Below, piece after piece: positions 6,832-37,684 of a stretch of 42,323 nucleotides of DNA; positions within the stretch are counted from its first letter, which is position 1, and each line of letters begins with the position of its first letter. The translations under genes and the position numbers were made by a program. Location of the stretch: the IMG/VR virus record IMGVR_UViG_3300021140_000012, positions 1 through 42,323 of that record. One strand, given 5' to 3'. A model generated the notes under the pieces. That model saw only the letters and a program-made list of their open reading frames with translations. It ran no database searches and was not told where the DNA came from. The stretch comes from a virus.

Positions 6832-8976
6832 ATGAACCTTACAGAATCCAAATCCAACCTTGCTCGCTTGATGTCTGAAGAGAACCTACTTGTTGAGCAG
6901 AGGTCTGGCGTTAGAAGCGCGTTTTTTGATACCAAAAATAGACTTCTTGTTGTGCCTAAGTTTAAGGATGACCTGTCTACAGACTGCCTTGACCTGATGT
7001 TGTCGCATGAGGTTGGTCATAGTATCAATTCGCCTGTTGATTGGGTTGAAATTTGTAGAAAAAAATCTTTAAATCATACAATCGTTAATGTTGTAGAAGA
7101 TAGTCGTATTGAAAGGTTGGTTAAACGGAAATATCCTGGTTTGCGTTCAATTTATTATCGTGCATATAAAGAATTATCCAATTCTGATTTCTTTGGTTTG
7201 TCTAAAGTAGACGACTTGTCTTCGCTCAATTTGATTGATAAAATCAACCTTTACTGTAAAATTGGATTCCTTTCTTTTATCGAATTCAACGATGAAGAAA
7301 AAGTCCTTCTGAATAAAGTAGAAACTACAGAAACCTTTGAAGAAACTATTAATGTTTCTTTGGAAATTCAAAATTATATTAAAGAACAATTAGAAAAAAG
7401 ATATGAAGAAGAATCAGACGGTTTGGGTGAAAACAAACCTTCTTATGGTGATTATGAACCTTTTGATTCCATAACTAACAATATCGCCCCGCTATCTGGA
7501 GAAACAGAAGAGGGTGAACAAGACTCAGAATCTAGTGATTCTGGAAACTATAATAGCACATTACCTAATTCTATTGGTGGTGATGAATTAGGCTCTTTGG
7601 AAGAATTTATTCAGAGTAACCTAAAATCATTTACTCAAGAAGAAGCAGAAATTAGAAAAGAGGAATTATATTCTGAATCTAGTAAAGATTCTGTATATGT
7701 AGATATTCCTGATATTAAAATATCAGAATATGTAGAAGATTATAAAGTCTTGTATAAAAAACTTTCTAATTATTTCTCTACAGCTTATTATAGCGACTGG
7801 TATAATAGAAAACAAATGCCGTTTGTATTAGATCAAACGGCGTATAATAAGTTTAAAGTTGAAAATTCTACTGTAGTGTCTTATTTGATTAAAGAATTTA
7901 ATCTTAAAAAGAACGCCAAAGGCAGAAAGAAAGCAAAAGTATCCAAAACAGGAGATATTCATCTTAATAAATTGTATTCATATAAGATTTCAGAAGATAT
8001 CTTTAAACGGTCTACTTCAATTCCAAAGTCTCAAAGTCACGGACTTGTATTCTTTTTGGATTGGTCTGGTTCAATGGTTGATTGGATGAAAGATACCATT
8101 AAGCAATTGCTGACTATGCTTATATTTTGTAGAAAACAAAATATTCCATTTGAAGTGTATGCGTTTTCTACTAATTATCCAAATAGGAATAAAAAATTCA
8201 AAGAAAAAGAACTGATTTTGCAACCAGTAATGTTGTATAATGTATTTTCTTCCAGAATGTCTAATTCAGAATTTGTATATGCTAGTAATTGTCTTTTGAA
8301 TTTTGATGGATACAGTTTTGGTCATTATGAAGGTGCGCATGGTCCAAAGGTATATCCTCCAGAATGGTTTAGTCTTGGTAATACTCCATTGAATCATTCT
8401 ATTTTTCTATCAAAGAAAGTTGTTGAAGAGTTCCAAACTAGGACTAAAGTACAGATTGTAAATAGTATTTACCTTACAGATGGCGAATCTCATGGTATTT
8501 GTTTTTATGTTAATCAGAATGGATATGCTCGCAATTATACAATAGAAACAGAATTTTTAAATATCTATTTTAGAGACAAACAAACTAAAGAAACCTTGTT
8601 GATTAAACCGAGAAACAGAATTCAAGAAACTAATGCTTGTGTTAAGTTTACAAAACAAATTTCTAACTTTAGAATGTTTGCCTTTAGGTTAGCAAGCGCC
8701 AAAGAACTAAAACGTAATGTTTATTCTTATTTTGGTTTTGGTGCAGATGGAGCATCAAAAGTTAGGGAATTTAATAGAGATAATTGTATTGAAGTTCCGT
8801 CTGAGTTTGATAAATTCTATTTTGTTAAGGGTAATCTATTGAATAAAGAAGAATCATTATCAGATGGTTTTGATAGTAAAACTGTTACAACTATGTCAAA
8901 AGAGTTTCATAAAGTTATGAGTAATAGAGTGAATACCAGAATATTCCTGAAAAAATTCATTGACTTCATTTCTTGA
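6832..8976 (+). CDS. CobT-like protein with HEVGH motif and VWA domain
   Basis: This 714-residue protein is the likely partner of the MoxR/CobS-like ATPase encoded divergently. Near residue 60 is LMLSHEVGHS, a HExxH zinc-protease-like helix, followed by NVVEDSRIERLVKRKYPGL, where the ED could supply a third ligand. An acidic, serine-rich middle (about 195-260) links to a VWA domain that begins VFFLDWSGSM (about 406-415), a full MIDAS DxSxS motif, with IYLTDGESHG later. The ATG at 6832 is chosen because GAGGAAG lies just ahead. AAA+/VWA pairs remodel target proteins or insert metals. No cobalamin function is implied. Confidence 0.85.
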   Translation: MNLTESKSNLARLMSEENLLVEQRSGVRSAFFDTKNRLLVVPKFKDDLSTDCLDLMLSHEVGHSINSPVDWVEICRKKSLNHTIVNVVEDSRIERLVKRKYPGLRSIYYRAYKELSNSDFFGLSKVDDLSSLNLIDKINLYCKIGFLSFIEFNDEEKVLLNKVETTETFEETINVSLEIQNYIKEQLEKRYEEESDGLGENKPSYGDYEPFDSITNNIAPLSGETEEGEQDSESSDSGNYNSTLPNSIGGDELGSLEEFIQSNLKSFTQEEAEIRKEELYSESSKDSVYVDIPDIKISEYVEDYKVLYKKLSNYFSTAYYSDWYNRKQMPFVLDQTAYNKFKVENSTVVSYLIKEFNLKKNAKGRKKAKVSKTGDIHLNKLYSYKISEDIFKRSTSIPKSQSHGLVFFLDWSGSMVDWMKDTIKQLLTMLIFCRKQNIPFEVYAFSTNYPNRNKKFKEKELILQPVMLYNVFSSRMSNSEFVYASNCLLNFDGYSFGHYEGAHGPKVYPPEWFSLGNTPLNHSIFLSKKVVEEFQTRTKVQIVNSIYLTDGESHGICFYVNQNGYARNYTIETEFLNIYFRDKQTKETLLIKPRNRIQETNACVKFTKQISNFRMFAFRLASAKELKRNVYSYFGFGADGASKVREFNRDNCIEVPSEFDKFYFVKGNLLNKEESLSDGFDSKTVTTMSKEFHKVMSNRVNTRIFLKKFIDFIS

Positions 8977-11623: not shown

Positions 11624-11631
11624 TATAAATA
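11624..11631 (+). promoter_or_regulatory. T4-type late promoter box ahead of the tmRNA
   Basis: TATAAATA overlaps the end of the lipoprotein gene region and lies 39 bases ahead of the 36-residue membrane gene and about 150 ahead of the tmRNA acceptor piece. If active, tmRNA would be a late product. Confidence 0.45.
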
Positions 11632-11662: not shown

Positions 11663-11773
11663 ATGCTAGAAGATTTAACAAAAAATGTATTATTAACTAT
11701 TCTTTTGATATTTTTTCTTGGTATGATTGGGTCCGTCGCATATTTGTTTGGTTTAATTGTTGAAAGTTTATAA
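11663..11773 (+). CDS. small membrane protein, 36 aa
   Basis: It reads MLEDLTKNVLLTILLIFFLGMIGSVAYLFGLIVESL: a short acidic start and one or two hydrophobic segments. It ends at 11773, just before the tmRNA acceptor piece, so the tmRNA is probably cut from the same transcript. No family is recognised. Confidence 0.5.
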   Translation: MLEDLTKNVLLTILLIFFLGMIGSVAYLFGLIVESL

Positions 11774-11835
11774 CAGCGTAAACATATAAACGAAAGTTAT
11801 TGCGGACGCGGGTGCGATTCCCGCCTTCTCCACCA

Positions 11836-11934
11836 AAAGCATACTAGGAAGGTTACTATAACCGAGAAAGCGAACGATATAATAACTGATCAAGTTTATA
11901 TCTAGTAAGAGCTAATGAATAGTATGCTTTTGAT
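11836..11934 (+). other. tmRNA intervening segment removed in processing
   Basis: It joins the CCA end of the acceptor piece to the 5' GGGG of the coding piece. Its ends form a perfect 11-bp inverted repeat (11835-11845 with 11921-11931), which extends the acceptor stem and would hold both cut sites together. RNase P would cut at 11935; the cut after CCA is likely by a host endonuclease. Confidence 0.85.
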
Positions 11935-12039
11935 GGGGAAGATCAGTTTCGACGTGGTAGTAAATAGTTTATATGCGCTCGGCAATACTGAAGTCGTTAG
12001 GATTGGGATATCCCGGTCAAAGAAGTAAATACAATAATT

Positions 12040-12072
12040 GCAAATGATTCAAAATTTGCCCTAGCCGCTTGA
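12040..12072 (+). other. tmRNA tag reading frame ANDSKFALAA
   Basis: The resume codon GCA at 12040 starts A-N-D-S-K-F-A-L-A-A and ends with TGA (12070-12072). It matches the common bacterial pattern ANDxxxALAA, whose LAA end is seen by ClpXP. Confidence 0.95.
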
Positions 12073-12087
12073 GTTAGGTGAGGTTCA

Positions 12088-12124
12088 GGAGGGATTCCTT
12101 ATTACCAAATATCCCTCCTTTTTT
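12088..12124 (+). terminator. rho-independent terminator of the tmRNA
   Basis: An 8-bp stem GGAGGGAT/ATCCCTCC (12088-12095, 12111-12118) is followed by six T's. Confidence 0.92.
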
Positions 12125-12136
12125 ACGTGTGAATAT

Positions 12137-12310
12137 ATGAAATCCTTTGAAAAAGAAGAAATGATAATTCTTACGGAATGTCTGCTCAAGCAAATAACTC
12201 AAGTTCTTGATTCCCGTGGAACTGTTATTAATGGCGAACTTAGATCGAAATTAAGTTACGCAGAATTAAATCTATTTAAAATATCAAAATTACTCAAAAA
12301 TGATAAGTGA
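12137..12310 (+). CDS. hypothetical protein, 57 aa, helical
   Basis: It starts MKSFEKEEMIILTECLLKQITQVLDSRGTV and is all charged helix. It follows the tmRNA terminator and overlaps the HAD gene by 11 bases, so they are translated as a pair. No family is recognised. Confidence 0.5.
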   Translation: MKSFEKEEMIILTECLLKQITQVLDSRGTVINGELRSKLSYAELNLFKISKLLKNDK

Positions 12311-13357: not shown

Positions 13358-13546
13358 ATGGGAATTCTAAAGCCAATTTCTGACGATGTTGATCAACTGG
13401 TCCAAGCAGGGTTTGACGATTATTATATTTGTAAATCTGTCGGGGTAGATTTTCCGGTATTAGAATATATCATTAAACATTTTCGTAAACAGTACAATAA
13501 GCAACCTACAATAAATATTAAGGAAGTTTATAAACCAGGAGACTAA
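13358..13546 (+). CDS. hypothetical protein, 62 aa, possible HTH
   Basis: It reads MGILKPISDDVDQLVQAGFDDYYICKSVGVDFPVLEYIIKHFRKQYNK. The part GFDDYYICKSVGVDFPVLEYIIKHFR has the helix-turn-helix rhythm of small recombinase-like or sigma-like DNA-binding domains: a helix, a G-V turn and a second helix with basic residues. That is a suggestion only. It follows the gene upstream by 1 base. Confidence 0.55.
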   Translation: MGILKPISDDVDQLVQAGFDDYYICKSVGVDFPVLEYIIKHFRKQYNKQPTINIKEVYKPGD

Positions 13547-13547
13547 T

Positions 13548-13781
13548 ATGGTTACAATAGAAATTAGTTGGGAAGAAATTAAGTTTTTTATTGCTCTTTG
13601 TGTTGCTGGTGGGGTTTATGGATATTATGTCTATAATAGGGGTTTGAAAAAAGGTTGGGATAATGCCATATATTCTCTTGAGGACGCAGGCGTTTTATAT
13701 GTTGATGAAGATGGTGATGTTTGTAGAGTTTCAGATCAAGAGTTCGAAAGTTATCAAGAAAGTATGGGATATTCTGAATAG
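13548..13781 (+). CDS. membrane-anchored acidic protein, 77 aa
   Basis: After MVTIEISWEEI there is a hydrophobic helix (IKFFIALCVAGGVYGYYVY), then KKGWDNAIYSLEDAGVLYVDEDGDVCRVSDQEFESYQ, an acidic tail of strand-turn-helix type. No family is recognised. Confidence 0.6.
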   Translation: MVTIEISWEEIKFFIALCVAGGVYGYYVYNRGLKKGWDNAIYSLEDAGVLYVDEDGDVCRVSDQEFESYQESMGYSE

Positions 13782-13787
13782 TCGTTT

Positions 13788-13949
13788 ATGATTATTTGCG
13801 TTTGTTCTAATCTAAATGAATCCAAAATGAGAAGTCTTATTAAGTGTAATAAGATTAAGTCTGTCAGAGAATTCCATAAATTACAACTTTGCTGTAATTG
13901 TGGGAAATGCTACAAAGACGTTCAGAAAATATTGAAAGAAAATGAATAA
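13788..13949 (+). CDS. Bfd-like [2Fe-2S] ferredoxin, 53 aa
   Basis: The sequence MIICVCSNLNESKMRSLIK begins like bacterioferritin-associated ferredoxin (M-x-C-x-C), and the C-terminal CCNCGKCYKDVQKILKE matches its C-x-x-C-[GK]-x-x end. Five or six cysteines (4, 6, 20, 35, 36, 38, 41) could hold a 2Fe-2S cluster. Host Bfd releases iron from ferritin; the phage copy may help mobilise iron or act as a redox partner. Size fits the 60-residue family. It is too short for most gene callers. Confidence 0.72.
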   Translation: MIICVCSNLNESKMRSLIKCNKIKSVREFHKLQLCCNCGKCYKDVQKILKENE

Positions 13950-14106
13950 AATTTATACAAGAAAAGTCGAATATGATTTTGAGGGCTATGCTATAATAGA
14001 GATTCCTGAAGAGATTTGTGAAGAGTTAGATTTACATCTAGGAGATGTTTTAGTTTATGAAATTAAGGCGGATTCTGTTATTTTGAGAAAGCGATTGGAA
14101 TATTAG
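13942..14106 (+). CDS. AbrB/MazE-like swapped-hairpin protein, 54 aa
   Basis: It reads MNKIYTRKVEYDFEGYAIIEIPEEICEELDLHLGDVLVYEIKADSVILRK. The pattern of strand, IPEEICEELDLHLGD and a final strand with VILRK is the SpoVT/AbrB hairpin used by antitoxins and transition-state regulators. It overlaps the Bfd-like gene by 8 bases. It could regulate transcription; no toxin gene is next to it. It may pair with a host toxin, which is inference. Confidence 0.65.
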   Translation: MNKIYTRKVEYDFEGYAIIEIPEEICEELDLHLGDVLVYEIKADSVILRKRLEY

Positions 14107-14116
14107 GAGTTGTATT

Positions 14117-14401
14117 ATGCCAAAATATATTGTGACTGCTATTTCGCAGTTTCGAATGAACTACGTTGTGGAATGTAAGAATGAAGAACACGCTTTAGAT
14201 ACTGTTTCTATGGAAGAGGTTCAGCAGGAGTTTTCTCAATTACATCTTGGGGAAACTATTGTCTCTTCCAGAAGAATTTCTGATGAAGAATATCTAGAGT
14301 TGTTTGATAAGGAAAACTCCTATTTAACTTCTTGGTCTGATGAACAAAAGTTTCAATTTGTTCATCAGGTTGATTATCCAGAAGATTGGGAATTCTCCTG
14401 A
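14117..14401 (+). CDS. hypothetical protein, 94 aa, strand-helix
   Basis: It starts MPKYIVTAISQFRMNYVVECKNEEHALDTVSMEEVQ, the pattern of small phage proteins with a ferredoxin-like fold in which a YIV strand is followed by an E-E-A helix. It has an acidic C-terminus. The stop overlaps the start of the next gene. Confidence 0.65.
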   Translation: MPKYIVTAISQFRMNYVVECKNEEHALDTVSMEEVQQEFSQLHLGETIVSSRRISDEEYLELFDKENSYLTSWSDEQKFQFVHQVDYPEDWEFS

Positions 14402-14655
14402 TGAGAGATATAGATTGTGTTGATATCATAGCAGAATTGGCCAAAGAATCTTCTAACGAATATCCTATAGATTTTGCTGATTTGTCTATATCTGAATCTG
14501 ATGCTTTTAAATTAATGGCTAGCGAAATTTATGAGAAATTTAACGCCACAAAAGGTACGGATAATGAGAGATTGATTCTATTATCAGCTATAACAACGCT
14601 AACAGTAGAAAATTTCGTTTTGAATTTACGATTGTTGAAACAACATAGAGGTTGA
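14401..14655 (+). CDS. hypothetical protein, 84 aa
   Basis: It begins MRDIDCVDIIAELAKESSNEYPIDFADLSISESDAFKLMASEIYEKF and is acidic and mostly helical. The ATG overlaps the preceding stop (TGATG), so it is preferred to an upstream TTG. No family is recognised; it looks like a typical early phage accessory protein. Confidence 0.6.
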   Translation: MRDIDCVDIIAELAKESSNEYPIDFADLSISESDAFKLMASEIYEKFNATKGTDNERLILLSAITTLTVENFVLNLRLLKQHRG

Positions 14656-14656
14656 T

Positions 14657-14806
14657 ATGTTTGTATTGATGCTAGTATTATCTCTGGGGTATGGTCAAAA
14701 GCAAATTCTATTCCAAGAATTTAGTTCTCTTAATAAATGTCAATTTGCTATATCGGAAATCTCTAAGATTGATATGGTAGAAAAATCTGTCTGTATACAG
14801 AAGTAG
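14657..14806 (+). CDS. small secreted-type protein with two cysteines, 49 aa
   Basis: MFVLMLVLSLGYGQKQIL is a short leader-like hydrophobic segment; the rest has CQFAI and SVCIQK, a pair of cysteines that may form a disulphide in the periplasm. The gene at 38755-38937 has the same layout (hydrophobic start, ESCQKA, FVCLQKK), so the two are probably paralogues. Tight spacing to both neighbours supports the call. Confidence 0.5.
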   Translation: MFVLMLVLSLGYGQKQILFQEFSSLNKCQFAISEISKIDMVEKSVCIQK

Positions 14807-14813
14807 GTTCATT

Positions 14814-14993
14814 ATGGAAAAGTATTTGATAGATAAAGTTTCGCAATTTACTCTAGAACAAATATATGATGAATTATATCAAATTAAAAGGGATTTGGAT
14901 TGGCTTGATGATTCAATTTCATTAACAAAAGATCAGCGCCAAATCTATAATGATATCAATACAAGAGTCAAGAAACTTTTAGGTTGCCGATGA
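14814..14993 (+). CDS. hypothetical protein, 59 aa, coiled helix
   Basis: It reads MEKYLIDKVSQFTLEQIYDELYQIKRDLDWLDDSISLTKDQRQIYNDI. A single charged helix with a coiled-coil like repeat suggests a dimer. Its stop lies beside the next promoter's -35 box. Confidence 0.5.
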   Translation: MEKYLIDKVSQFTLEQIYDELYQIKRDLDWLDDSISLTKDQRQIYNDINTRVKKLLGCR

Positions 14994-14994
14994 C

Positions 14995-15023
14995 TTTACT
15001 TTGTACCGCTCTTACGGTATAAT
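14995..15023 (+). promoter_or_regulatory. sigma70-type promoter
   Basis: TTTACT (14995-15000) and TATAAT (15018-15023) are 17 bp apart. The spacer holds an inverted repeat TACCG/CGGTA, possibly an operator. Confidence 0.8.
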
Positions 15024-15056
15024 ACTTTTGTAGTTGAATTTTGTGAGATTTTTAAT

Positions 15057-15410
15057 ATGAAATTGACAAAAAAAGATCTAGAAAGTCTGGTGGTATTCAA
15101 TAAAAACCAAAAGCGAATTGGTGAACCTAAACTAACTCCTGAAGAATACCTTTTTTACCTGTACGGCAAGGGTTTTAAACATTTACAGGTAAAAAAAGAA
15201 AAGAAAAAGCTGAAATCTCTTGATATTCCAAACTGGGCGACCGACCACCGAAATATTGTTTCGGTTACTTCGGATCATATCGCTACAAAACCAAACGAAG
15301 AATATAAGAAAGAAGTTTCTAAGAAATATCCTGTTGCACTAGCCTACAATAAAGGAAATTATCAAGTATTATTGCCTTCTGAAATCCAACACGCAGGAAG
15401 AAAAGTATGA
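15057..15410 (+). CDS. conserved phage protein, 117 aa
   Basis: It is basic at the N-terminus (LTKKDLESLVVFNKNQKRIGEPKLTPEEYLFYLYGKGFK) with a basic stretch VKKEKKKLKSLDIPNWATDHRNIVSVTSDHIATKP in the middle. Such proteins are seen in many phages without a known function; the charge suggests nucleic-acid contact. Its stop overlaps the next start. Confidence 0.6.
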   Translation: MKLTKKDLESLVVFNKNQKRIGEPKLTPEEYLFYLYGKGFKHLQVKKEKKKLKSLDIPNWATDHRNIVSVTSDHIATKPNEEYKKEVSKKYPVALAYNKGNYQVLLPSEIQHAGRKV

Positions 15411-15640
15411 ATGTAAAAGAGTTGATTGTAGTATTATCAGGATTTGATCCTGAAGCGATAGTTGTTGTTAATGGATATGAAGGTGGATATACTGAAGATA
15501 TTGGTGTATCTGAAAAAGAAATTTATTTAAATGTTTACGATGAATGGTATTATGGAAAACATGGAGATGCCTTTGATATTTCCTATGGAAAAGAAGGTCT
15601 TTCTTTTGAAAAAGCAAATGCTGTGATTATATCGAGGTAA
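15407..15640 (+). CDS. hypothetical protein, 77 aa
   Basis: It reads MNVKELIVVLSGFDPEAIVVVNGYEGGYTEDIGVSEKEIYLNVY. The pattern of a short helix, a V-V-V strand and a GYEGG turn resembles a small phage protein family with the fold seen in many early genes. Acidic; function unknown. Confidence 0.6.
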   Translation: MNVKELIVVLSGFDPEAIVVVNGYEGGYTEDIGVSEKEIYLNVYDEWYYGKHGDAFDISYGKEGLSFEKANAVIISR

Positions 15641-15642
15641 GT

Positions 15643-15840
15643 ATGGATATGGCTAAGGCTATTGTTATTACGATTGCTTGTTTTTTCATTTCTCTTTTTG
15701 TTGCTTTTTTGTTGATTAACGATAACAGTTATATTATTATAAAATCTGAATGGAATTGTACTAAATCTTTGATACTTGACAATAATAATGTTGATCAAGT
15801 TACTTGTATTGAATATAGAAAGGTAACTGATAATGAATAA
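15643..15840 (+). CDS. membrane-anchored small protein, 65 aa
   Basis: MDMAKAIVITIACFFISLFVAFLLIND is a single N-terminal helix; the tail EWNCTKSLILDNNNVDQVTCIEYRK carries two cysteines likely to pair in the periplasm. The layout repeats in several genes of this window (30490, 32548, 40253). Confidence 0.6.
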   Translation: MDMAKAIVITIACFFISLFVAFLLINDNSYIIIKSEWNCTKSLILDNNNVDQVTCIEYRKVTDNE

Positions 15841-16087
15841 AGAATTAAATACTTTACTGAACACAACTGTTGATGGAACTGGTAATAACTATAATCTTTA
15901 TTTTGAAATAAAAGATTCGTCAATTCCTGATTATGTAGATATTAACTTTTATTCTACGTTGAGTTCTGCTAAGAATCCTTCAGCAACTCAAGATAAGTGG
16001 AAAACTACTTTGCCTCTCGAAAGTATCGATGAGTTATCAGATACTTTGATAGAATATCTAAGAACTAAGGTAATGGAAAAGATATGA
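15833..16087 (+). CDS. hypothetical protein, 84 aa
   Basis: It starts MNKELNTLLNTTVDGTGNNYNLYFEIKDSS and has predicted strands then a C-terminal acidic helix (SIDELSDTLIEYLRTKVME). It overlaps the gene upstream by 8 bases and the next by 4. Confidence 0.55.
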   Translation: MNKELNTLLNTTVDGTGNNYNLYFEIKDSSIPDYVDINFYSTLSSAKNPSATQDKWKTTLPLESIDELSDTLIEYLRTKVMEKI

Positions 16088-16305
16088 TTCTAAATTCCCA
16101 AGATTTGAAAAATATTTTCAATGATTCCAATAACAATAAAGAATACGAAGTATTGGTTTATACATCTTTTAATCATTATCCTATCAATAATATAATCAAA
16201 GATGGTAATAAGATTTATATTATTACAGAAGAAATTGGTGGAACTTTGGTTAATGAAGGTAAAGAAGAAATTGAAGAAACTAATGATGGACCTATGATTG
16301 CGTGA
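16084..16305 (+). CDS. hypothetical protein, 73 aa, acidic
   Basis: It reads MILNSQDLKNIFNDSNNNKEYEVLVYTSFNHYPINNIIKDGNKIYIITEE and ends with an acidic, disordered tail (NEGKEEIEETNDGP). The fold looks like strands joined by turns. It overlaps its neighbour by ATGA. Confidence 0.55.
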   Translation: MILNSQDLKNIFNDSNNNKEYEVLVYTSFNHYPINNIIKDGNKIYIITEEIGGTLVNEGKEEIEETNDGPMIA

Positions 16306-16311
16306 GGTAAT

Positions 16312-16476
16312 ATGTCTAAAATTGTTGAATATAAAATTATTATGGTTGAAAATTATGCAGAACTGCAAGATGACGTAAATAAGTATATCAAAGAAGGTTG
16401 GCAACCTTATGGTAATTTTTTCTTAACTGAAAATTATCTAATAATTCAACCTATGGCGAAATATGAGGAAGAATAA
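16312..16476 (+). CDS. DUF1737-like small protein, 54 aa
   Basis: The pattern YKIIMVENYAELQDDVNKYIKEGWQPYGNFFLTENYLIIQPMAKY matches the DUF1737 style: a strand, a helix L-x-x-x-V-N-x-x-I-x-E-G-W-x-P and a final Q-x-M strand. These small proteins are common in phages and bacteria without a firm role. The stop overlaps the next start by one base. Confidence 0.65.
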   Translation: MSKIVEYKIIMVENYAELQDDVNKYIKEGWQPYGNFFLTENYLIIQPMAKYEEE

Positions 16477-16775
16477 TGATAACAGCTGAAAAGGCGAAAG
16501 AACTAACAAAACGAGCAATTTTTAATAATATTGACGAGCAACTCCGATACGTTTTTGAAGATATCAGAGATGCAGCATTAGATGGTAAGAAAGAATTTAT
16601 TATTGATAATTATAGATGTACCAAAGAAAGTTATAGTCCTTATATTTGGTTGCTTGGACCTAGAAGTAATTCTTCGGATTGGCAAAAGGTAGAGAAAGTG
16701 ATCAAGGATCAAGGATTTAATGTCAAATATTATCTAATCCGTCAAGGTGAAGATTATGTTTCTATTACTTGGTAA
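16476..16775 (+). CDS. hypothetical protein, 99 aa
   Basis: It begins MITAEKAKELTKRAIFNNIDEQLRYVFEDIRDAALDGKKEFIIDNY. An A-K-E-L-T helix, a long helix and then a WQKVEKVIKDQGFNVKYYLIRQGEDYVSITW segment look like the small phage/prophage protein family with V-I-x-x-L-x-x-x-G-F-x-V near the C-terminus. No function is known. Confidence 0.65.
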   Translation: MITAEKAKELTKRAIFNNIDEQLRYVFEDIRDAALDGKKEFIIDNYRCTKESYSPYIWLLGPRSNSSDWQKVEKVIKDQGFNVKYYLIRQGEDYVSITW

Positions 16776-16778
16776 TAT

Positions 16779-16898
16779 ATGAGAGCGTTATTTTTTGTAT
16801 TGATATTTTCTCTTGTTGCTGGTTGTATATACAGAGAAAATTGCCCTCATCATAAAAACTTACCCAAAGGTCGTCAGTGTGATACTTTTCTTTTATAA
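16779..16898 (+). CDS. small lipoprotein, 39 aa
   Basis: MRALFFVLIFSLVAGCIYRENCPHH gives a signal peptide with a good lipobox LVAGC (Cys16). The mature peptide is only 24 residues with two more cysteines. It would be lipidated in the periplasm. The sequence is too short for standard gene calling but the lipobox and spacing are convincing. Confidence 0.6.
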   Translation: MRALFFVLIFSLVAGCIYRENCPHHKNLPKGRQCDTFLL

Positions 16899-16907
16899 TG
16901 GTGTGAT

Positions 16908-17093
16908 ATGAAACTTGGTCTTGGCGTTTTTGGTATTTTACTTGCTGTATATATTATAATTATACCTTGTGGATTTATTTGGTCTATTAATACATTATTT
17001 CAATTAAATATTGAATATGATTTTGAGAATATTGCCGCAGCGTTCTTTCTGCTTTCTGTTCTAAGTCCATATTCAAATTATTCTAAGAAATAA
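16908..17093 (+). CDS. small membrane protein, 61 aa
   Basis: MKLGLGVFGILLAVYIIIIPCGFIWSIN is one long helix; a second hydrophobic part (IAAAFFLLSVLSPY) follows an acidic loop. It probably crosses the membrane twice. Overlaps the next gene by one base. Confidence 0.55.
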   Translation: MKLGLGVFGILLAVYIIIIPCGFIWSINTLFQLNIEYDFENIAAAFFLLSVLSPYSNYSKK

Positions 17094-17236
17094 TGGAATT
17101 TAAAGTAGGAATGAGAGTTATTTGTTATAACTCTTTTAAAGGTAAAATACTCTCGATAGAGAAATCTAATTGCGTTGTCAAGATTGATAGGTCTTGTATG
17201 ATGTTATGTAATTTTGTTTATATGAAACCGGAATAA
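17093..17236 (+). CDS. hypothetical protein, 47 aa, SH3-like
   Basis: It reads MEFKVGMRVICYNSFKGKILSIEKSNCVVKIDRSCMMLCNFVYMKPE. The V-G-M-R-V...G-K-I-x-S-I...V-V-K-I pattern is that of a small KOW/SH3-like barrel. Four cysteines are present. Nucleic-acid or protein binding is possible. Confidence 0.5.
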   Translation: MEFKVGMRVICYNSFKGKILSIEKSNCVVKIDRSCMMLCNFVYMKPE

Positions 17237-17237
17237 T

Positions 17238-18068
17238 ATGAGAAACAGATATTGGTCAAACGGGAAATTCGCTAATTGGGTAAGAGGTACTCCTCAACCA
17301 GAATGCGGAACTTCTAAAGAATGGCGAGATTGGAAGCAAACTGCTAAAACGAAACATCCATTTCGATATTGGCTTGCTGAAACTGCTCTTGATAAGATTC
17401 AAGACTTTATTATGTATCCTATTGATAAACTCTATTCTGTGAAATATTGGTTAGTTAATAGATTTGTAACCAAAACTCATCAACTCACGTCCAATTTGAA
17501 AAAAGGTGAATGGCACGAACTAGATGAAAGAATTCTTCATTGTTTATTTGATGAGCTTGTGAATTTTGTCGAGGTGGAAGTTGCATGGAAAAATATCATT
17601 TGCGATGAAGCTTCTGCAGTAAAATATAATGCGCCTTGGCATTCAAAAGGTTGGTTTAAGAGCAGAACTTGGAGAAATGCTCAATCTGGTCTAGATTATC
17701 TTGATTGGGAAACTACTCTTATCAAAGACGAATCTTGGGGATTAAGTAAAGATGATCCAGAATATGGTCAACCTACTGAACAATCTCTGAAAGCTCAAGA
17801 AATCTCTGAACTCTACCATTGGTGGAAATTCACCAGACCTAATAGACCCGACCCTTATGAAGTTTCTGGGTGGAACGCCCGTTACGAAACAAAAACCAAT
17901 AGCGGCGATAGCCTTTGGGATTATATGTGTACACCAGAAACCGAAGAAGAAAAATTAGAAACCAGAAGGGTTCATGATCTTATGAATAAAATCGAGGAGG
18001 ATTATTTTCAAGAAGATGAAGAAATGTTGATAAAACTTATTCGTCTGCGTAGATCCCTCTGGACTTGA
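17238..18068 (+). CDS. conserved phage protein, 276 aa
   Basis: Tryptophan-rich and conserved in many large phages: FANWVRGTPQPECGTSKEWRDW, PFRYWLAETALDKIQDFIMYPIDKLYSVKYWLVNRFVTKTHQL, LFDELVNFVEVEVAWK. I recognise this pattern from T4-like and other large phages, always as a protein of unknown function. No catalytic motif is seen. The stop codon is in the -35 region of the promoter at 18065-18093. Confidence 0.75.
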   Translation: MRNRYWSNGKFANWVRGTPQPECGTSKEWRDWKQTAKTKHPFRYWLAETALDKIQDFIMYPIDKLYSVKYWLVNRFVTKTHQLTSNLKKGEWHELDERILHCLFDELVNFVEVEVAWKNIICDEASAVKYNAPWHSKGWFKSRTWRNAQSGLDYLDWETTLIKDESWGLSKDDPEYGQPTEQSLKAQEISELYHWWKFTRPNRPDPYEVSGWNARYETKTNSGDSLWDYMCTPETEEEKLETRRVHDLMNKIEEDYFQEDEEMLIKLIRLRRSLWT

Positions 18069-18093
18069 CTTTTTCTCAAGACTGTAGTATGAT
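18065..18093 (+). promoter_or_regulatory. sigma70-type promoter of the RNA repair operon
   Basis: TTGACT (18065-18070) and TATGAT (18088-18093) are 17 bp apart. The stop codon TGA of the gene upstream is inside the -35 box. Confidence 0.85.
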
Positions 18094-18119
18094 TTACTTT
18101 CTGTTTAAGGAGCGTAAAT

Positions 18120-19052
18120 ATGTTACAGTCACAACTCAAAGAATATGTAGAAAACAATTCTAATCTTGTTCAGATGAAAAAATCTGAATCCCATACTGAT
18201 TTATTTGTATTAAAATATAAAAGAAAAGTCTTTTTTGATGGGCTTTGGAATCGTTATCTTGAAAAGTGTCGTGGTCTGGTAGTAGATAAAGATTTCAACA
18301 TTATTGTTCATCCTTTCGATAAAATCTATAATTACGGAATAGAAAAGAACTCTTCAGTATTATCTGATGATGAAAAGGTCTTAGCAATCAAGAAGTATAA
18401 TGGATTTATGGCAACGGCATCAAAGTATAAAGATGGTGTTGTAGTTGCAACTACTGGATCTTTGGATTCTGATTATGCTAAGTTAGCAAGGGAAATGATA
18501 TTAAAAGTAATTCCTGAGAAGAATTTCATTCATAATACTACTTTTATGTTTGAAATTTGTCATTCTTCTGATCCTCATATTATTCCTGAAAAGGAAGGAG
18601 TGTATTTCTTGGGTCAAAGAGATAATGGTTATAATGATAAAATATCTCATTCTACGTCAATTTCCCAGATGGTTGACTATGGATTGGATTGGTATTGTAG
18701 TTCTGAATTTGATCGTGAATATAATATGTTGGGATTGACTATTCCTGTTCCAACTTATACTACTCTAGGTGAATTAAAGGAAAGAGTGAAGAAGGTAAAA
18801 CATGAAGGTTATGTTGCATACACAAAAGATGGGGAATCGTTTAAATTAAAATCTCCATATTACTTGATTAACAAATTGTTTGCTCGTAAGCAAAATATTG
18901 ATTCTTTGTTAAATGGTGACTTGAGTAAGATTGATGAAGAATACTATCCTTTAGTTGAACATATTAAGGAAAACAGAGAAGTATTTTCTGGAATGGATGA
19001 ACAATCTCGATTAAACTTTACTCGTACTTTTTTGGAGAACTATCTTGACTAA
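18120..19052 (+). CDS. RNA ligase, T4 Rnl1-like nucleotidyltransferase
   Basis: This 310-residue protein joins RNA 5'-phosphate and 3'-OH ends using ATP. The covalent site is KYNG (Lys92, the KxxG motif I) in LAIKKYNGFMATAS. FRGLVVD-type sequence (ECRGLVVDKDFNIIVHPFDKIYNYGE-like, about 48-75) precedes it as in phage Rnl1 proteins. Motif III is TFMFEICHSSDPHI (141-154), motif IV EGYVAYT (229-235), motif V FKLKSPYY (241-248). It is followed, with overlap, by a kinase and a phosphatase, so the three form an RNA repair unit, probably against host anticodon nucleases. Confidence 0.88.
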   Translation: MLQSQLKEYVENNSNLVQMKKSESHTDLFVLKYKRKVFFDGLWNRYLEKCRGLVVDKDFNIIVHPFDKIYNYGIEKNSSVLSDDEKVLAIKKYNGFMATASKYKDGVVVATTGSLDSDYAKLAREMILKVIPEKNFIHNTTFMFEICHSSDPHIIPEKEGVYFLGQRDNGYNDKISHSTSISQMVDYGLDWYCSSEFDREYNMLGLTIPVPTYTTLGELKERVKKVKHEGYVAYTKDGESFKLKSPYYLINKLFARKQNIDSLLNGDLSKIDEEYYPLVEHIKENREVFSGMDEQSRLNFTRTFLENYLD

Positions 19053-19461
19053 AAGAATGATTTTAATTCGAGGATTGCCAGGTTCGTCCAAAAGTACACT
19101 TGCTGGCGATATGAGTTTTGCATATCCTTTTTCTGAGCATTTTGAAGCAGATATGTATTTTATAGATTCGGATGGTAATTATAATTTTGATGCTTCAAAA
19201 CTTAGACAAGCTCATAAGTGGTGTCAAGAACAAACTGATAGAGTGTTAGCTGAAGGTGAAATGGTAGTTGTATCCAATACCTTCACAACCAAGAAAGAAC
19301 TAAAACCTTATTTTGAACTTGCTAAGAAGTATAATATCATTCCAACTGTAATTCTTTGTCAGAACAATTTTGGATCAATCCATAATGTTCCAGAAGAAAC
19401 TATAGAAAAAATGAAGCAAAGATTTCAATACGATATTTCAGAATTATTCGAGGTACTATGA
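19045..19461 (+). CDS. P-loop kinase, polynucleotide 5'-kinase-like
   Basis: The P-loop GLPGSSKST (10-18) follows a MILIRG strand, as in the kinase half of T4 polynucleotide kinase. Length is 138 residues, so only the kinase domain is present and the phosphatase half is missing. FEADMYF gives the Asp of the usual D-x(3) position, and MKQRF gives a lid arginine. It would phosphorylate 5'-OH RNA ends. The TTG at 19045 is chosen because GGAG lies 8 bases ahead; ATG at 19057 is too far from it. Overlaps both neighbours. Confidence 0.82.
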   Translation: MTKRMILIRGLPGSSKSTLAGDMSFAYPFSEHFEADMYFIDSDGNYNFDASKLRQAHKWCQEQTDRVLAEGEMVVVSNTFTTKKELKPYFELAKKYNIIPTVILCQNNFGSIHNVPEETIEKMKQRFQYDISELFEVL

Positions 19462-20003
19462 GCATATTCTTTACAAGCGACATTCATGCGTTTCATAAAA
19501 AAATATTAGAATATGAACCTGATGCTCGTCAATTTTCTTCAGTAGAATTGATGAATGATACCATTGTTGAGCGTTGGAATTCTAAAGTTTCTAAGAACGA
19601 TGAAATTTTTATTCTTGGAGATGTTTCTTTTGGAAAACTTAAAGAAACTGTAGATTTCCTAGGACGCCTTAATGGTAAACTTTGTCTCGTATCTGGAAAT
19701 CACGATGTACATTTAACAAAGCATCAAGATTTTATTGATTGTTTTGATGGTAGGGTATTTGATTTGTTAGATCATAAGATTAATGGTAAACACTATGTTA
19801 TGTGTCATTATCCATTAAGAGCATGGAACAAATCACATTACGGATCGATAAACCTATTTGGACACCTCCACAGTAAATGGAAAGGAAATCGTCAACAATT
19901 AAATGTTGGAATGGATTTGTGGAATCTTACTCCATTAGCAATAGAAGAAATTCCATCAATCCTTGAATCCCTACCGGAAGATGAAAATAAAATCTACGCT
20001 TGA
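19458..20003 (+). CDS. metallophosphoesterase
   Basis: This 181-residue calcineurin-type enzyme shows DIH (about 8-10), GDVSFG (about 52-57), GNHD (about 79-82), CHYPLRAW (about 115-122) and GHLH (about 134-137), which together form a two-metal site. In this operon it is well placed to remove 3' or 2',3'-cyclic phosphates, the job done by the missing phosphatase half of T4 Pnkp. That link is inference. It overlaps the kinase by 4 bases; its stop TGA lies inside the next promoter. Confidence 0.88.
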   Translation: MSIFFTSDIHAFHKKILEYEPDARQFSSVELMNDTIVERWNSKVSKNDEIFILGDVSFGKLKETVDFLGRLNGKLCLVSGNHDVHLTKHQDFIDCFDGRVFDLLDHKINGKHYVMCHYPLRAWNKSHYGSINLFGHLHSKWKGNRQQLNVGMDLWNLTPLAIEEIPSILESLPEDENKIYA

Positions 20004-22531: not shown

Positions 22532-22756
22532 ATGAATCAAGAAAAGATTAAAGAACTTGCTAAACAAGCAGGTTATCTTCCTGATATGTTCGGTGTTGGT
22601 CACTGGGACATGCCGGAATTTAAAAGATTTGCTGAATTGATTATTGAGGAATGTGCTGGTGTGTGTAGTAATGCCACAGCAGGAAAAGGGATGATTGACC
22701 TCGTTGGTCGTGGATTTGCCGAAGAAATAAAACTACATTTTGGAATTGAATTATGA
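22532..22756 (+). CDS. LA-x-QAG / FAELI-EC family protein (copy 1)
   Basis: It reads MNQEKIKELAKQAGYLPDMFGVGHWDMPEFKRFAELIIEECAGVCSNATAGKGMIDLVGRGFAEEIKLHFGIEL. The family has an N-terminal IKELAKQAG helix, a variable loop and the core FAELIIEEC, and often ends in FGIE. At least six relatives are in this window (22753, 23004, 26609, 28009, 28693, 31605). The family is known from many phages without a function. Overlaps the next copy by 4 bases. Confidence 0.75.
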   Translation: MNQEKIKELAKQAGYLPDMFGVGHWDMPEFKRFAELIIEECAGVCSNATAGKGMIDLVGRGFAEEIKLHFGIEL

Positions 22757-23007
22757 ACAGCGAACTCGTTAATATTGTAAAAAAGATTTGTGACGATACT
22801 GGCATTCTTCCAGAAGAAGAATATTTTGAGATTGCTGAATTGATTGTGGCAGAAGCGTTTAGAGCAGGTATGCTCTATTCCGCCAAAAAGTATTCAGAAG
22901 TTGGCCAAGAACGCTTTATTGGTAACGACGTTTCTCTATTTTTAGAAATGGAAGCAGTCGAACTAACAGATGATGAGATTATACAGCATTTTTGTATTGA
23001 AAAATGA
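22753..23007 (+). CDS. FAELI family protein (copy 2)
   Basis: This 84-residue copy has a shorter helix (VNIVKKICDDTGILPEEEYFEIAELIVAEAFRAGMLYSAKKYSEV) and a C-terminal HFCIEK that fits the FGIE end. The Cys of the E-C pair is replaced by Ala here. It overlaps copies 1 and 3, so the three arose as tandem duplicates and then diverged. Confidence 0.65.
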   Translation: MNSELVNIVKKICDDTGILPEEEYFEIAELIVAEAFRAGMLYSAKKYSEVGQERFIGNDVSLFLEMEAVELTDDEIIQHFCIEK

Positions 23008-23273
23008 ACGATAGAATCAAAGAATTAGCCGAACAAGCGGGATTTGTGGACTATATGGTTTTAGGAAGGATAGAATCTAAAGAAAGAGTGCTTGAAACAT
23101 TTGCTGAATTGATTATTGAGGAATGTTATCAAGCAGTGAGAGGTAGATGTGATGGTGTTTTGGAAGACGAGGAAATGATGGAAGATCATTACTGGAAAGG
23201 ATATGTTTCTGGTGTTTGTGATGCTGCTAGTGAAATCAGACAGTGTTTTGATAGCGTAGATTTTGATCATTGA
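23004..23273 (+). CDS. FAELI family protein (copy 3)
   Basis: MNDRIKELAEQAGFVDYM starts like copy 1; TFAELIIEECYQAVRGRCDGV is the core. The C-terminus GYVSGVCDAASEIRQCFDSVDFDH differs from the usual FGIE end. Last of the tandem set; the stop is next to a promoter. Confidence 0.75.
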   Translation: MNDRIKELAEQAGFVDYMVLGRIESKERVLETFAELIIEECYQAVRGRCDGVLEDEEMMEDHYWKGYVSGVCDAASEIRQCFDSVDFDH

Positions 23274-24465: not shown

Positions 24466-24495
24466 AGTCTTGTAGTTAAAAAAGTGGAGACTAAA

Positions 24496-25515
24496 ATGAG
24501 AAAACTTGCTTCGATTCAAAAAGTTCTTGACGTTGTTCCTATTGAGGGTGCTGATAGGATTTGTTCTTATAAAATCCAAGGTTGGAATGTTGTAGATTCT
24601 GTGGGTAAATATGCAGTCGGTGATCTTGTTATCTATTGCGAGATAGATAGTTTTATTCCTACTGAGATTGCTCCCTTCTTATCAAAAGGTAATGAACCAA
24701 GAGAATACGAGGGAATCAAGGGAGAAAGATTGCGTACCGTTCGCTTGAGAGGTACTCTATCCCAAGGACTTATTCTTCCACTTTCGACCATTCCTGAAAC
24801 TTGGGACGATGTTTGCTCTGTAGACGATCTTTACTCTGGTGAAGATGTATCAGAACTGTTAGGAATCATTAAATACGAACCGCCCATTCCTGCTTGTCTT
24901 GCTGGTGAAATAAAAGGATTGTTTCCGTCTTTCATTCGTAAGACCGATCAACCTCGGATTCAAAATCTAGTTGACGAATTTGAATCTTTCAAAGAATATG
25001 ATTTTGAAGTTTCAGAAAAGCTGGACGGATCGTCTTGTACCATCTATTATAATGATGGAGATTTCGGTGTCTGCTCAAGAAATTTGGATCTGAAACCAAA
25101 TGATGATAACACTTTCTGGAAAATGTGTCAGAAGTATGATTTGGAATCTAAATTGAAGTTACTTGGAAAGAATATTGCTATTCAAGGAGAAGTTATTGGA
25201 ACTTCAATTCAAGGCAATCCATACAAGATTTCTGGGCAGGATTTCTATGTTTTTGATGTCTATGATATTGATAAGCAAGAATACTATAATTCTATTGAGA
25301 GATTGCATTTGTGTGAGTCGTTAGAATTAAAACACGTTCCAGTTCTTGAACAAGTTGGCATATCTGATTCTATTGAGTCCTTGTTGAAATATGCCGAAGG
25401 TAAATCTGAATTGAATAGTATTACTGAACGAGAAGGATTGGTATTTAAATGTATTCAAAACCCTAGCATTTCCTTTAAGGCGATCTCAAACAAATTTTTG
25501 ATAAAGGAGAAATAA
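24496..25515 (+). CDS. RNA ligase, Rnl5 (DRB0094)-like
   Basis: This 339-residue protein has an N-terminal OB-type domain (about 1-115, with WNVVDSVGKYAVGDLVIYCEIDSFIP and RGTLSQGLILPL), then a nucleotidyltransferase domain: motif I EKLDGSS (Lys175), motif III IAIQGEVIG (227-235), FYVFDVYDI, motif IV EREGLVFK (near 315) and motif V SFKAISNKFL. Order and length match the Rnl5 family typified by the Deinococcus enzyme, which seals nicks with a 5' DNA-type side and 3' RNA strand. It is a second ligase in this phage. The ATG at 24496 follows GGAGACTAAA. Confidence 0.9.
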   Translation: MRKLASIQKVLDVVPIEGADRICSYKIQGWNVVDSVGKYAVGDLVIYCEIDSFIPTEIAPFLSKGNEPREYEGIKGERLRTVRLRGTLSQGLILPLSTIPETWDDVCSVDDLYSGEDVSELLGIIKYEPPIPACLAGEIKGLFPSFIRKTDQPRIQNLVDEFESFKEYDFEVSEKLDGSSCTIYYNDGDFGVCSRNLDLKPNDDNTFWKMCQKYDLESKLKLLGKNIAIQGEVIGTSIQGNPYKISGQDFYVFDVYDIDKQEYYNSIERLHLCESLELKHVPVLEQVGISDSIESLLKYAEGKSELNSITEREGLVFKCIQNPSISFKAISNKFLIKEK

Positions 25516-26608: not shown

Positions 26609-26887
26609 ATGAATCCTAAAGCTAGAGAATTAGCAGAAAAGGCAGGTTTCATTTTCTGGCGGGACGAGGAATGGAAACCGCAAGATGCCGTTATTGATTG
26701 GAGCACACAGTATGATTCAGAATTAGAAAAATTCACCAACCTTGTCATTCAGGAATGTATAGATAAGATTGAAACCTATAGAATACCTTGCGGCAATAGT
26801 GCAGCAGGAGAAATGGCGTGTGAATGGACCTATGATGCTCTGAAATCTATTCGTGATGACATCAAAGAAACTTTTGGTATTGAATGA
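26609..26887 (+). CDS. FAELI family protein (copy 4)
   Basis: It starts MNPKARELAEKAGFIFWRDEEWKPQDAVIDWSTQYDSELEKFTNLVIQECIDKIETY and ends ETFGIE. The core FTNLVIQEC replaces the usual FAELIIEEC. 92 residues, the longest copy. GGTGG lies ahead of the ATG. Confidence 0.7.
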   Translation: MNPKARELAEKAGFIFWRDEEWKPQDAVIDWSTQYDSELEKFTNLVIQECIDKIETYRIPCGNSAAGEMACEWTYDALKSIRDDIKETFGIE

Positions 26888-27800: not shown

Positions 27801-28012
27801 TGAGATATTTTCAAATTCAATATCCCGACGAAAACGATAATAATATCGTAGAGGTCTTATCTGAAGAAGATATTCGTAGAGATTATTTTCCGTTTTGGTA
27901 TGAAAAGATGTGTGCTAAATTTGGAAAAGCCCACGTAGACGAGAATTATACTTTTGAAGATTGTTTAGGCGATTGGAAAGTAGTACATTGGGCAATTGAG
28001 GTTAAAGAATGA
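27800..28012 (+). CDS. MRYFQIQY/SEEDIR family protein, 70 aa
   Basis: It reads MRYFQIQYPDENDNNIVEVLSEEDIRRDYFPFWYEKMCAKFGKAHVDENYTFEDCLGDWKVVHWAIEVKE. The same family as the truncated copy at 22084. The W-K-V-V-H-W-A at the end is a common feature in this family. Function not known. Confidence 0.7.
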   Translation: MRYFQIQYPDENDNNIVEVLSEEDIRRDYFPFWYEKMCAKFGKAHVDENYTFEDCLGDWKVVHWAIEVKE

Positions 28013-28266
28013 ACGAAAGAATTAAAAAACTTGCTTTGAAAGCAAATTTAGATTATGATACTCATATTCCAAATGCTTGGGCTGGAACTTCTGAAGATTT
28101 AGAAAAGTTTGCAGAATTGATTGTCAATGAATGTGTTGATCTGATCTTAAAAAGCGAAGAAGACGTATTTGATGAGGAAGATCCAAACAATCCATACTAT
28201 CAAGGTATGATTAGAGGAAAGTTGGATGATTGCCACCTATTGAAAGATACTTTTGGAATTGAGTAA
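28009..28266 (+). CDS. FAELI family protein (copy 5)
   Basis: It starts MNERIKKLALKANLDYDTHIPNAWAGTSEDLEKFAELIVNECVDLI and ends KDTFGIE. The DEEDPNNPYYQGMIRGKLDD stretch is the typical acidic loop. Overlaps the gene upstream by 4 bases. Confidence 0.78.
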   Translation: MNERIKKLALKANLDYDTHIPNAWAGTSEDLEKFAELIVNECVDLILKSEEDVFDEEDPNNPYYQGMIRGKLDDCHLLKDTFGIE

Positions 28267-28692: not shown

Positions 28693-28914
28693 ATGATTGA
28701 TATATTCGAAGAATTGAAACAAAAAGCAACTGTTATTGTTGATGATGGTTGGGGAGGTATTCATCCAGAATTCAATGAAGAAAAGTTTGCTGAACTAATC
28801 ATAACAGATGTTCACGAATTACTTCAAGAACATTACCAAGAAACTCCGTTAGAACTTTGTGGTCCTTTATTGGACTTTTATCATAAACTTATTGACAGGT
28901 ATCACATACAATGA
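28693..28914 (+). CDS. FAELI family protein (diverged copy 6)
   Basis: MIDIFEELKQKATVIVDDGWGGIHPEFNEEKFAELIITDVHELLQEHYQETPLELCGPLLDFYHKLIDRYHIQ. The core KFAELIITD keeps the family pattern but loses the E-C pair, and the end is different. Overlaps the next gene by ATGA. Confidence 0.6.
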   Translation: MIDIFEELKQKATVIVDDGWGGIHPEFNEEKFAELIITDVHELLQEHYQETPLELCGPLLDFYHKLIDRYHIQ

Positions 28915-36034: not shown

Positions 36035-36817
36035 ATGAAAACCTTAATTCTACAAAACGTATCGACTAAAGAAATCAGAACTGTTGTTCAAGCAGTTGCT
36101 CTTGCTGATAAAAATGAATATTGCATTATTCGTTCAGATATTGATGACTTAGAGAAGTATTCCGAAGAGTTAAGGTCTGCTATTCCTGTGGGTTCTGTCG
36201 AGTTTGTTAGGAAAGCGATGGAAATTGCTGGTTTTAAGGAACCAATGATTGATCCATATCCGATTACAGACGAGAAATATCTTCATAGAAAAGTTCAAAA
36301 AATTGATCTAATTGGACATTGTTTTTTCCCATTTTTTGATGGATTCGTTAAGCCAACAAAATTAAAGCAATTTACAGGCTTTGTATATGATCCTAAAGAC
36401 TATTCAGATGAATATCTGAACGAACAAAAAGAATCGTTATATGAGGCATATAGGGATTCTTGCAAGATTCATAAATCTTATGAAGTATGGACTTCTGATG
36501 TTGTTAAGTTTATGGGAGAATGGAGATATTATATTCAGAATGAAAAGATCATTGGATACGCTAGATACGATGACGATGACGAAAATCCAGAAGAATTACA
36601 AGAACCAGATAAATCACTGATTAAAGAATATATTTCTAAACTTGAGATTAAACATCCCTATGTGTTAGATTTTGGTATTCTTTCAACAGGCGAAACTGCA
36701 CTGGTTGAATATAATCCTCCTTTCGCAATAGGATTGTATGGGGATGCTTTATCCCCAAAACAATATTTAAGTTTCTTGGAAGAAGGGTGGGAATGGATAC
36801 TACTTCAATCGTCTTAA
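36035..36817 (+). CDS. ATP-grasp domain protein (R2K clade-like)
   Basis: This 260-residue protein has an N-terminal part MKTLILQNVSTKEIRTVVQAVALADKNEYCIIRSDI, then GEWRYYIQNEKIIGYARYDDDDEN (about 167-190) and KHPYVLDFGILSTGETALVEYNPPFAIGLYGDALSPKQYLSFLEEGWEW (about 211-257). The VLDFGILSTGETALVEYNPPFAIG motif is that of ATP-grasp enzymes of the R2K clade, found in phages. It likely forms an amide bond or modifies a protein or peptide with ATP. The substrate is unknown. Its end overlaps, on the other strand, the end of the HNH gene. Confidence 0.82.
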   Translation: MKTLILQNVSTKEIRTVVQAVALADKNEYCIIRSDIDDLEKYSEELRSAIPVGSVEFVRKAMEIAGFKEPMIDPYPITDEKYLHRKVQKIDLIGHCFFPFFDGFVKPTKLKQFTGFVYDPKDYSDEYLNEQKESLYEAYRDSCKIHKSYEVWTSDVVKFMGEWRYYIQNEKIIGYARYDDDDENPEELQEPDKSLIKEYISKLEIKHPYVLDFGILSTGETALVEYNPPFAIGLYGDALSPKQYLSFLEEGWEWILLQSS

Positions 36818-37684
36818 TTTTCCTTCCTTACAACTAATGACAACCCATTCCCAATCTTCTTTTGGTCCAGTTTGAGAATAATATTGTTCTTTTGGTATAT
36901 GTTTACATACCCCTGTTTTATTATAACAAGTTACCATTCCTTTTGTAGCACATTCTGCCTTAATATTAGGATTTATTTTCAATTTTCTCTTTCTACCTTC
37001 ATTAGAGATTTGATGAACCCATTCCCAATCTTCTTTTGGTCCAGTTTGAGAATAATATTCTTCTTTTGGTATATGTTTACAGTTGCCTTGTTTATCGACG
37101 CAAACTACTTTACCAGTAGTTGTATAAATTATTTCTGTAATTTTATTTAACTTTTTTGCCATTCGTCGTTTTGCAATTTTTGTTAAATTTTGGACAAAAT
37201 CCCAATCTTCTTTTGGTCCTGTTTGAGAATAATAACTCTCGGAACTTATTCTTATAAAATTTCCTTGTTTATCTATGCATGGAACAGTTTCTCTATTATT
37301 ATAATAGTGATGAGATCCGTCTTTCGATCTTTTAATTTGAGTATCTCCTCCAACAGAACTTCCATCTTCTCTTTTTAGAAAATTATGAGTTCCGTTTTCG
37401 ATTTGTTTTTTAACATTAATTGATGCCAATCTTGATAATTCTTCTGGAGGGATTTTCAATCTTTCCCCAATTAAAAATGCTGCATAATAATCGCCTTGGG
37501 AATAGTGGATTTCGTAATGTTCTTGTATAGAAACTGCTTTTAAGTTTGTTGAGTCGTTGTTGTTATGATTTCCGTCTATATGATGGATTTCATATGTTCT
37601 TCCTTCGACATCAACTGGAATAGAACCGAAATTGTCTATATAAATTTTTCGATAATTGGATTTGTTTCTTTTATAAATACTCAT
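36800..37684 (-). CDS. HNH homing endonuclease with three C-terminal repeats
   Basis: The N-terminus has an HNH core: YEIHHIDGNHNNNDSTNLKAVSIQEHYEIHYSQGDYYAAF (31-70). Three copies of a 31-residue repeat follow (134-164, 193-223, 251-281), each reading V-x-C-x-x-K-x-G-x-x-x-x-I-x-x-E-x-Y-Y-S-Q-T-G-P-K-E-D-W-x-(W/F)-V. The copies are 58-59 residues apart. They are probably DNA-contact modules that set the length of the target site. The gene is inserted on the minus strand between rightward genes and overlaps the ATP-grasp gene end by 18 bases. GGAG lies ahead of its ATG. Confidence 0.88.
   Translation of the reverse strand: MSIYKRNKSNYRKIYIDNFGSIPVDVEGRTYEIHHIDGNHNNNDSTNLKAVSIQEHYEIHYSQGDYYAAFLIGERLKIPPEELSRLASINVKKQIENGTHNFLKREDGSSVGGDTQIKRSKDGSHHYYNNRETVPCIDKQGNFIRISSESYYSQTGPKEDWDFVQNLTKIAKRRMAKKLNKITEIIYTTTGKVVCVDKQGNCKHIPKEEYYSQTGPKEDWEWVHQISNEGRKRKLKINPNIKAECATKGMVTCYNKTGVCKHIPKEQYYSQTGPKEDWEWVVISCKEGKLRRLK

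Follow-up and report, generated by a model that had tools for sequence, protein, structure and literature searches.

Anatomy of the tmRNA locus

The window, by which we mean the whole 42,323-nucleotide viral stretch analysed here, contains a tmRNA gene in the circularly permuted order, with the acceptor piece ahead of the coding piece; tmRNA is an RNA that releases ribosomes that have become stuck. The features of the locus, all on the plus strand, are as follows.

11663..11773, +, hydrophobic open frame of 36 codons that stops just 5' of the tmRNA core (translation)
11774..12072, +, permuted tmRNA gene, core matched by RF04321 (full-length model match, 1-213)
11783..11791, +, P2 helix, 5' strand in gene order (9 bp with 11967-11975; in the minimum-energy fold)
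11808..11824, +, T-arm with loop TGCGATT (sequence; covariance-model alignment)
11825..11835, +, acceptor stem 3' strand CTTCTCC (11825-11831), then ACCA; predicted 3' end of the acceptor piece (sequence and model alignment)
11836..11934, +, intervening segment (spacer) of 99 nt, predicted to be excised; a 13-bp closing helix extends the acceptor stem (fold)
11935..11941, +, acceptor stem 5' strand GGGGAAG, pairing 7/7 with 11825-11831; predicted 5' end of the coding piece
11967..11975, +, P2 helix, 3' strand in gene order (sequence; minimum-energy fold)
12040..12072, +, tag reading frame ANDSKFALAA with stop UGA (ARAGORN; sequence)
12087..12124, +, terminal hairpin and T-run, an intrinsic terminator and likely 3' end (sequence; 9-bp stem in the minimum-energy fold)

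An earlier sequence-only reading had placed the T-arm, acceptor strands, spacer, P2, tag and terminator, and re-reading of the sequence found each of them at its position. The acceptor strands pair at all seven positions as claimed, and the third pair is G11937.U11829, that is, the G3.U70 alanine identity pair. The 9-bp P2 that it had described is also present. The tag frame has its resume codon, Ala-rich end and stop in place and reads GCA AAT GAT TCA AAA TTT GCC CTA GCC GCT TGA (12040-12072). The hairpin and T-run at 12087-12124 agree with the terminator it had proposed, which was missing from a simple terminator scan because its 15-nt loop exceeds the loop limit of that scan. The T-loop TGCGATT differs from the commonest form, TTCGATT, and occurs in 13 viral examples including the gene of the window. 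The open frame at 11663..11773 may be a leader gene or may have arisen by chance.

Covariance models and predicted folding

The Rfam model RF04321 (tmRNA_permuted) matched 11774-12072 with 104.8 bits against a cut-off of 47 (E 1.5e-19), which bears out the claim of a circularly permuted phage tmRNA on the test by which the sequence-only reading had said it could fail. The alpha_tmRNA model (RF01849) gave 68 bits (cut-off 50), and beta_tmRNA (RF01850) gave 81.6 bits, slightly below its cut-off of 84; as the alpha score passes its cut-off but the beta score is the higher, the gene is assigned to neither subtype. ARAGORN, which is independent of Rfam, called a permuted tmRNA* at 11743-12163 and returned the same tag, ANDSKFALAA, as the sequence-only reading.

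The minimum free energy of 11774-12124 was -106.4 kcal/mol against a shuffle mean of -79.6 (z -5.1), and 0 of 100 shuffled sequences were as stable. The unconstrained fold of this region recovered the acceptor stem, T-stem, P2 and terminal hairpin. The spacer and its flanks, folded as 11829-11941, gave -31.3 kcal/mol (z -5.3) with a 13-bp helix that prolongs the acceptor stem. None of the Rfam riboswitch models reached threshold in the window. These results together establish that the permuted tmRNA at this locus is real, far beyond chance.

The phage and its population

The window, a 42-kb viral record, encodes an AAA+ CobS-like protein, a DexA-like exonuclease and a 718-aa protein. The last belongs to a "peptidase" family that is common among cyanophages, and it matched Synechococcus phages at about 32% identity, along with a few Pelagibacter phages. 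Megablast of window positions 1-25000 against phage records returned no close DNA relatives, no integrase was found among the window proteins scanned, and ARAGORN found no tRNA gene in the window. The T4-type major capsid gene gp23 (PF07068) was found neither in the window nor in five partial conspecific contigs, the longest of 74.6 kb, while the same search detects gp23 in three T4-type isolates. The sequence-only reading had called the phage T4-like. This label is supported by accessory genes of T4-like type (the DexA-like exonuclease, an Rnl1-like RNA ligase and a polynucleotide-kinase-like gene) and by the cyanophage "peptidase" family, but not by the capsid gene, which was not found in the six partial records, so we regard the phage only as likely to be T4-like.

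The tmRNA gene is identical in the five other contigs of this population, and over the 648-base stretch compared the sole difference lies at 12190, outside the gene. The 74.6-kb contig is mostly 94-99% identical to the window where the two align. No SmpB gene was found in these six partial records, which is consistent with the use of host SmpB. A strong promoter for the tmRNA gene was not identified, and the T4-late-like promoter motif TATAAATA, present at 11624, occurs in the window no more often than chance would predict.

Several other features of the phage were recorded. Two different RNA ligases, one of them Rnl1-like, and a polynucleotide-kinase-like gene lie at 18120-19052, 19045-19461 and 24484-25515, and could form an RNA repair set. 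A near-exact tandem duplication of 79 bases at 2008-2160 contains an inverted repeat, GGGGAACATAAAGTTCCCC, as well as units of 19 bases that include TACTTATGCGTTTTC; the end of the 74.6-kb contig aligns next to it, at 2212-2298. Small, seemingly paralogous proteins sharing an FAELI-EEC-like motif are encoded at 22532-23273, 26609-26887, 28009-28266 and 28693-28914, and an HNH-type protein at 36800-37684 on the minus strand has three YYSQTGPKEDW-like repeats. Outside the window, the 74.6-kb conspecific contig (L219) has a cluster of about 20 tRNA genes at 13421-19881.

Frequency and conservation in viral contigs

Viral contigs were scanned for the pattern CTCCACCA, a spacer, and then GGGG...TTCGACG. 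The stretches obtained numbered 70 for spacers of 3-22 nt, 103 for 23-53 nt, 106 for 54-84 nt, 96 for 85-115 nt and 34 for 116-146 nt. After filtering for acceptor and T-stem pairing and de-duplication, this strict motif left at least 220 distinct viral examples, some of which may be host DNA from prophage-bearing contigs; the G3.U70 pair is imposed by the search pattern and therefore does not count as evidence in this set. The viral spacers split into a short and a long class, and that of the window (99 nt) belongs to the long one, whereas spacers were 5-38 nt in the bacterial genes that could be parsed, a small sample of 11. A similar pattern scan of genome contigs was set aside, as it gave mostly chance matches and just 7 of the 22 genomes picked passed RF04321; a plasmid search yielded one short T-arm match.

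Among 121 permuted tmRNA loci with spacers of at least 50 nt, the spacer ends paired over a median of 10 bp, compared with 6 in swapped controls. For P2 across loci, a longest-helix test showed no signal (6.6 vs 6.4), and a duplex-energy test showed a modest excess (-18.1 vs -14.4 kcal/mol). The LAA ending was kept in 89 of 119 tags of the set. The tags of viral permuted tmRNAs are diverse, with 129 different ones among the 158 read.

Relation to known phage and bacterial tmRNAs

The sequence-only reading suggested that no such gene had been described in a T4-like phage. This did not stand, as a two-piece tmRNA was described in 2022 for the T4-like methylophage Melnitz (PMC9004378). The 133 unique phage tmRNA structures of that study include 53 putative two-piece forms, 50 of them from marine or aquatic phages, and for Melnitz it raised the possibility of selective tagging, considered below. 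Melnitz and the pelagimyophages (PMC9004378) resemble the window in having a permuted ssrA with a tag frame in a T4-like phage; the Melnitz gene differs in its predicted glutamine riboswitch, for which the window has no counterpart at threshold.

Both gp23 and a permuted tmRNA above cut-off were found in the isolates HTVC008M, Marzo and DLP6, which are further examples of the kind. The Pelagibacter phage HTVC008M has a T4-type capsid gene and a permuted tmRNA (RF04321, 90.6 bits), and differs from the window in its tag, ANFNEYALAA, its shorter spacer and its location, four genes upstream of the record end near a late-promoter transcription factor gene. The HTVC008M gene, at 145161-145370 (L425, NC_020484.1), is unannotated in the record. 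Synteny between the window and HTVC008M by way of a nearby exonuclease was considered and rejected, the two exonucleases being without similarity. The Stenotrophomonas phages Marzo and DLP6 share the permuted form and also have a T4-type capsid gene. Their beta_tmRNA scores (94.6 and 103.7 bits, respectively) are above cut-off, unlike that of the window, their spacers are 57 and 31 nt against 99 nt, and their tags are VAANDDSYTVRIAA and ANDDSFAPMAIAA. Permuted tmRNAs were also found in Xanthomonas phage Rb1, Caulobacter phage CcrPW, Brevundimonas phage Bajun and Tunturiibacter phage Tunturi_4.

In three other sequences (L070, L041 and L092), a DexA 40-42% identical to that of the window is followed, after 212-263 nt, by a permuted tmRNA whose T-loop is unusual and longer; in the window the distance is 2.2 kb. 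A fourth sequence, L019, has at 7970-8268 the same spacer and coding piece as L070 with the T-arm replaced (RF04321, 51 bits vs 85), and this copy appears to be recombinant or decaying.

The alpha- and betaproteobacterial two-piece tmRNAs (RF01849 and RF01850) share with the window gene the gene order, acceptor stem, P2 and tag. In the tree, the window tmRNA is distant from all sampled sequences and groups with viral rather than bacterial copies, those nearest being the viral contigs L152, L178, L068, L137 and L091. Node support near the window gene is weak (0.006-0.41), and thus no donor is claimed; good support was reached only by broader viral clusters, one of 7 sequences (0.94) and one of 16 (0.92). 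A Luteibacter genome (G021) served as stand-in for the Stenotrophomonas and Xanthomonas hosts, and in its order the permuted cut-off was passed by 1 of 41 genomes, so that the tmRNA form of some phages probably differs from that of their host. This contrast needs caution at the level of strains, because the Marzo paper describes its tmRNA as closely resembling an SsrA of betaproteobacterial class that had been reported in S. maltophilia (PMC8928761). A speculative and rather unlikely extension of these comparisons is that permuted phage tmRNAs whose spacers are long and closed by a helix make up separate, phage-borne lineages. These would have passed between hosts, including those with one-piece tmRNA, and would have diverged tags and processing that serve infection and not the host.

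Proposed function

We consider it probable that this phage gene yields a functional two-piece tmRNA, processed by host enzymes and used with host SmpB, which keeps ribosomes free during infection. The sequence-only reading had suggested that the RNA may replace the host tmRNA or compete with it, or may tag proteins with a sequence of the phage. By analogy with the known bacterial two-piece tmRNA, from which transcription, processing, charging, SmpB use and benefit are all projected, a single transcript would run from upstream of 11774 to the terminator near 12124, and the acceptor stem with its 13-bp spacer helix would present a tRNA-like precursor. Host tRNA-processing nucleases would then remove the spacer and leave an acceptor piece ending in ...CTTCTCCACCA (11835) and a coding piece starting with GGGGAAG (11935), the two joined through the acceptor stem and P2. 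The host alanyl-tRNA synthetase would charge the molecule via the G3.U70 pair, and host SmpB would bring it to stalled ribosomes, where the tag ANDSKFALAA would be added. The likely benefit to the phage would be that ribosomes are kept free during the rapid mRNA turnover of infection. Host SsrA levels stay high in T4-infected cells. The authors of that study take this to suggest that rescuing ribosomes is useful at that time (PMC9697503), and it fits a need for such rescue.

The function as a two-piece tmRNA is favoured by the concordant Rfam and ARAGORN calls, the completeness of acceptor, T-arm, P2, tag and terminator, the counterparts of the spacer helix across the 121 long-spacer loci, the identical gene in five more contigs, the common LAA tag end and the finding of no SmpB gene in the six partial records, which is consistent with host SmpB being used. 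The deviant T-loop and the failure to identify a strong promoter, the motif at 11624 being no commoner than chance, speak against it. The anatomy, fold, model match and conservation within the phage population are direct observations.

A phage RNA of this kind could instead act as a decoy: by binding SmpB, AlaRS or EF-Tu it would block host trans-translation or out-compete it. A tag-less tmRNA-like RNA is known from mycobacteriophage DS6A and such a molecule inhibits tmRNA (PMC11915505, PMC4131195). In the window gene, however, nothing of the tag frame, the resume site or the terminal parts has been lost, although a decoy would not need them, and most copies of the set end their tag in LAA, making a decoy improbable. 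It is also quite improbable that the locus is a host gene, recently captured or decaying and without function in the phage. The tmRNA genes are integration sites and could be acquired by imprecise excision (discussed in PMC9004378), but here all elements are intact and identical in six contigs, no integrase was seen among the proteins scanned, and the gene groups with viral rather than bacterial copies, weakly near the window and with 0.94 for the viral cluster of seven. Least credible, and in our view highly improbable despite the diversity of viral tags, is that the phage's own tag marks host proteins for breakdown so that their amino acids feed phage synthesis, because tmRNA works on stalled ribosomes and not on chosen proteins and the tag of the window is of an ordinary type.

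Significance

The gene is complete, but permuted tmRNA in T4-like phages was already known. The window gene confirms that such phages carry complete two-piece ribosome-rescue RNAs. The viral examples found with the strict motif and the unannotated one in the long-sequenced HTVC008M indicate that these genes are common. The additions made here are modest, namely a spacer that exceeds those of the small bacterial sample in length and the occurrence of the permuted form in some phages whose hosts' order mostly lacks it. With the cultured Stenotrophomonas phages that carry the gene, laboratory tests could address the benefit that a phage draws from having a tmRNA of its own.
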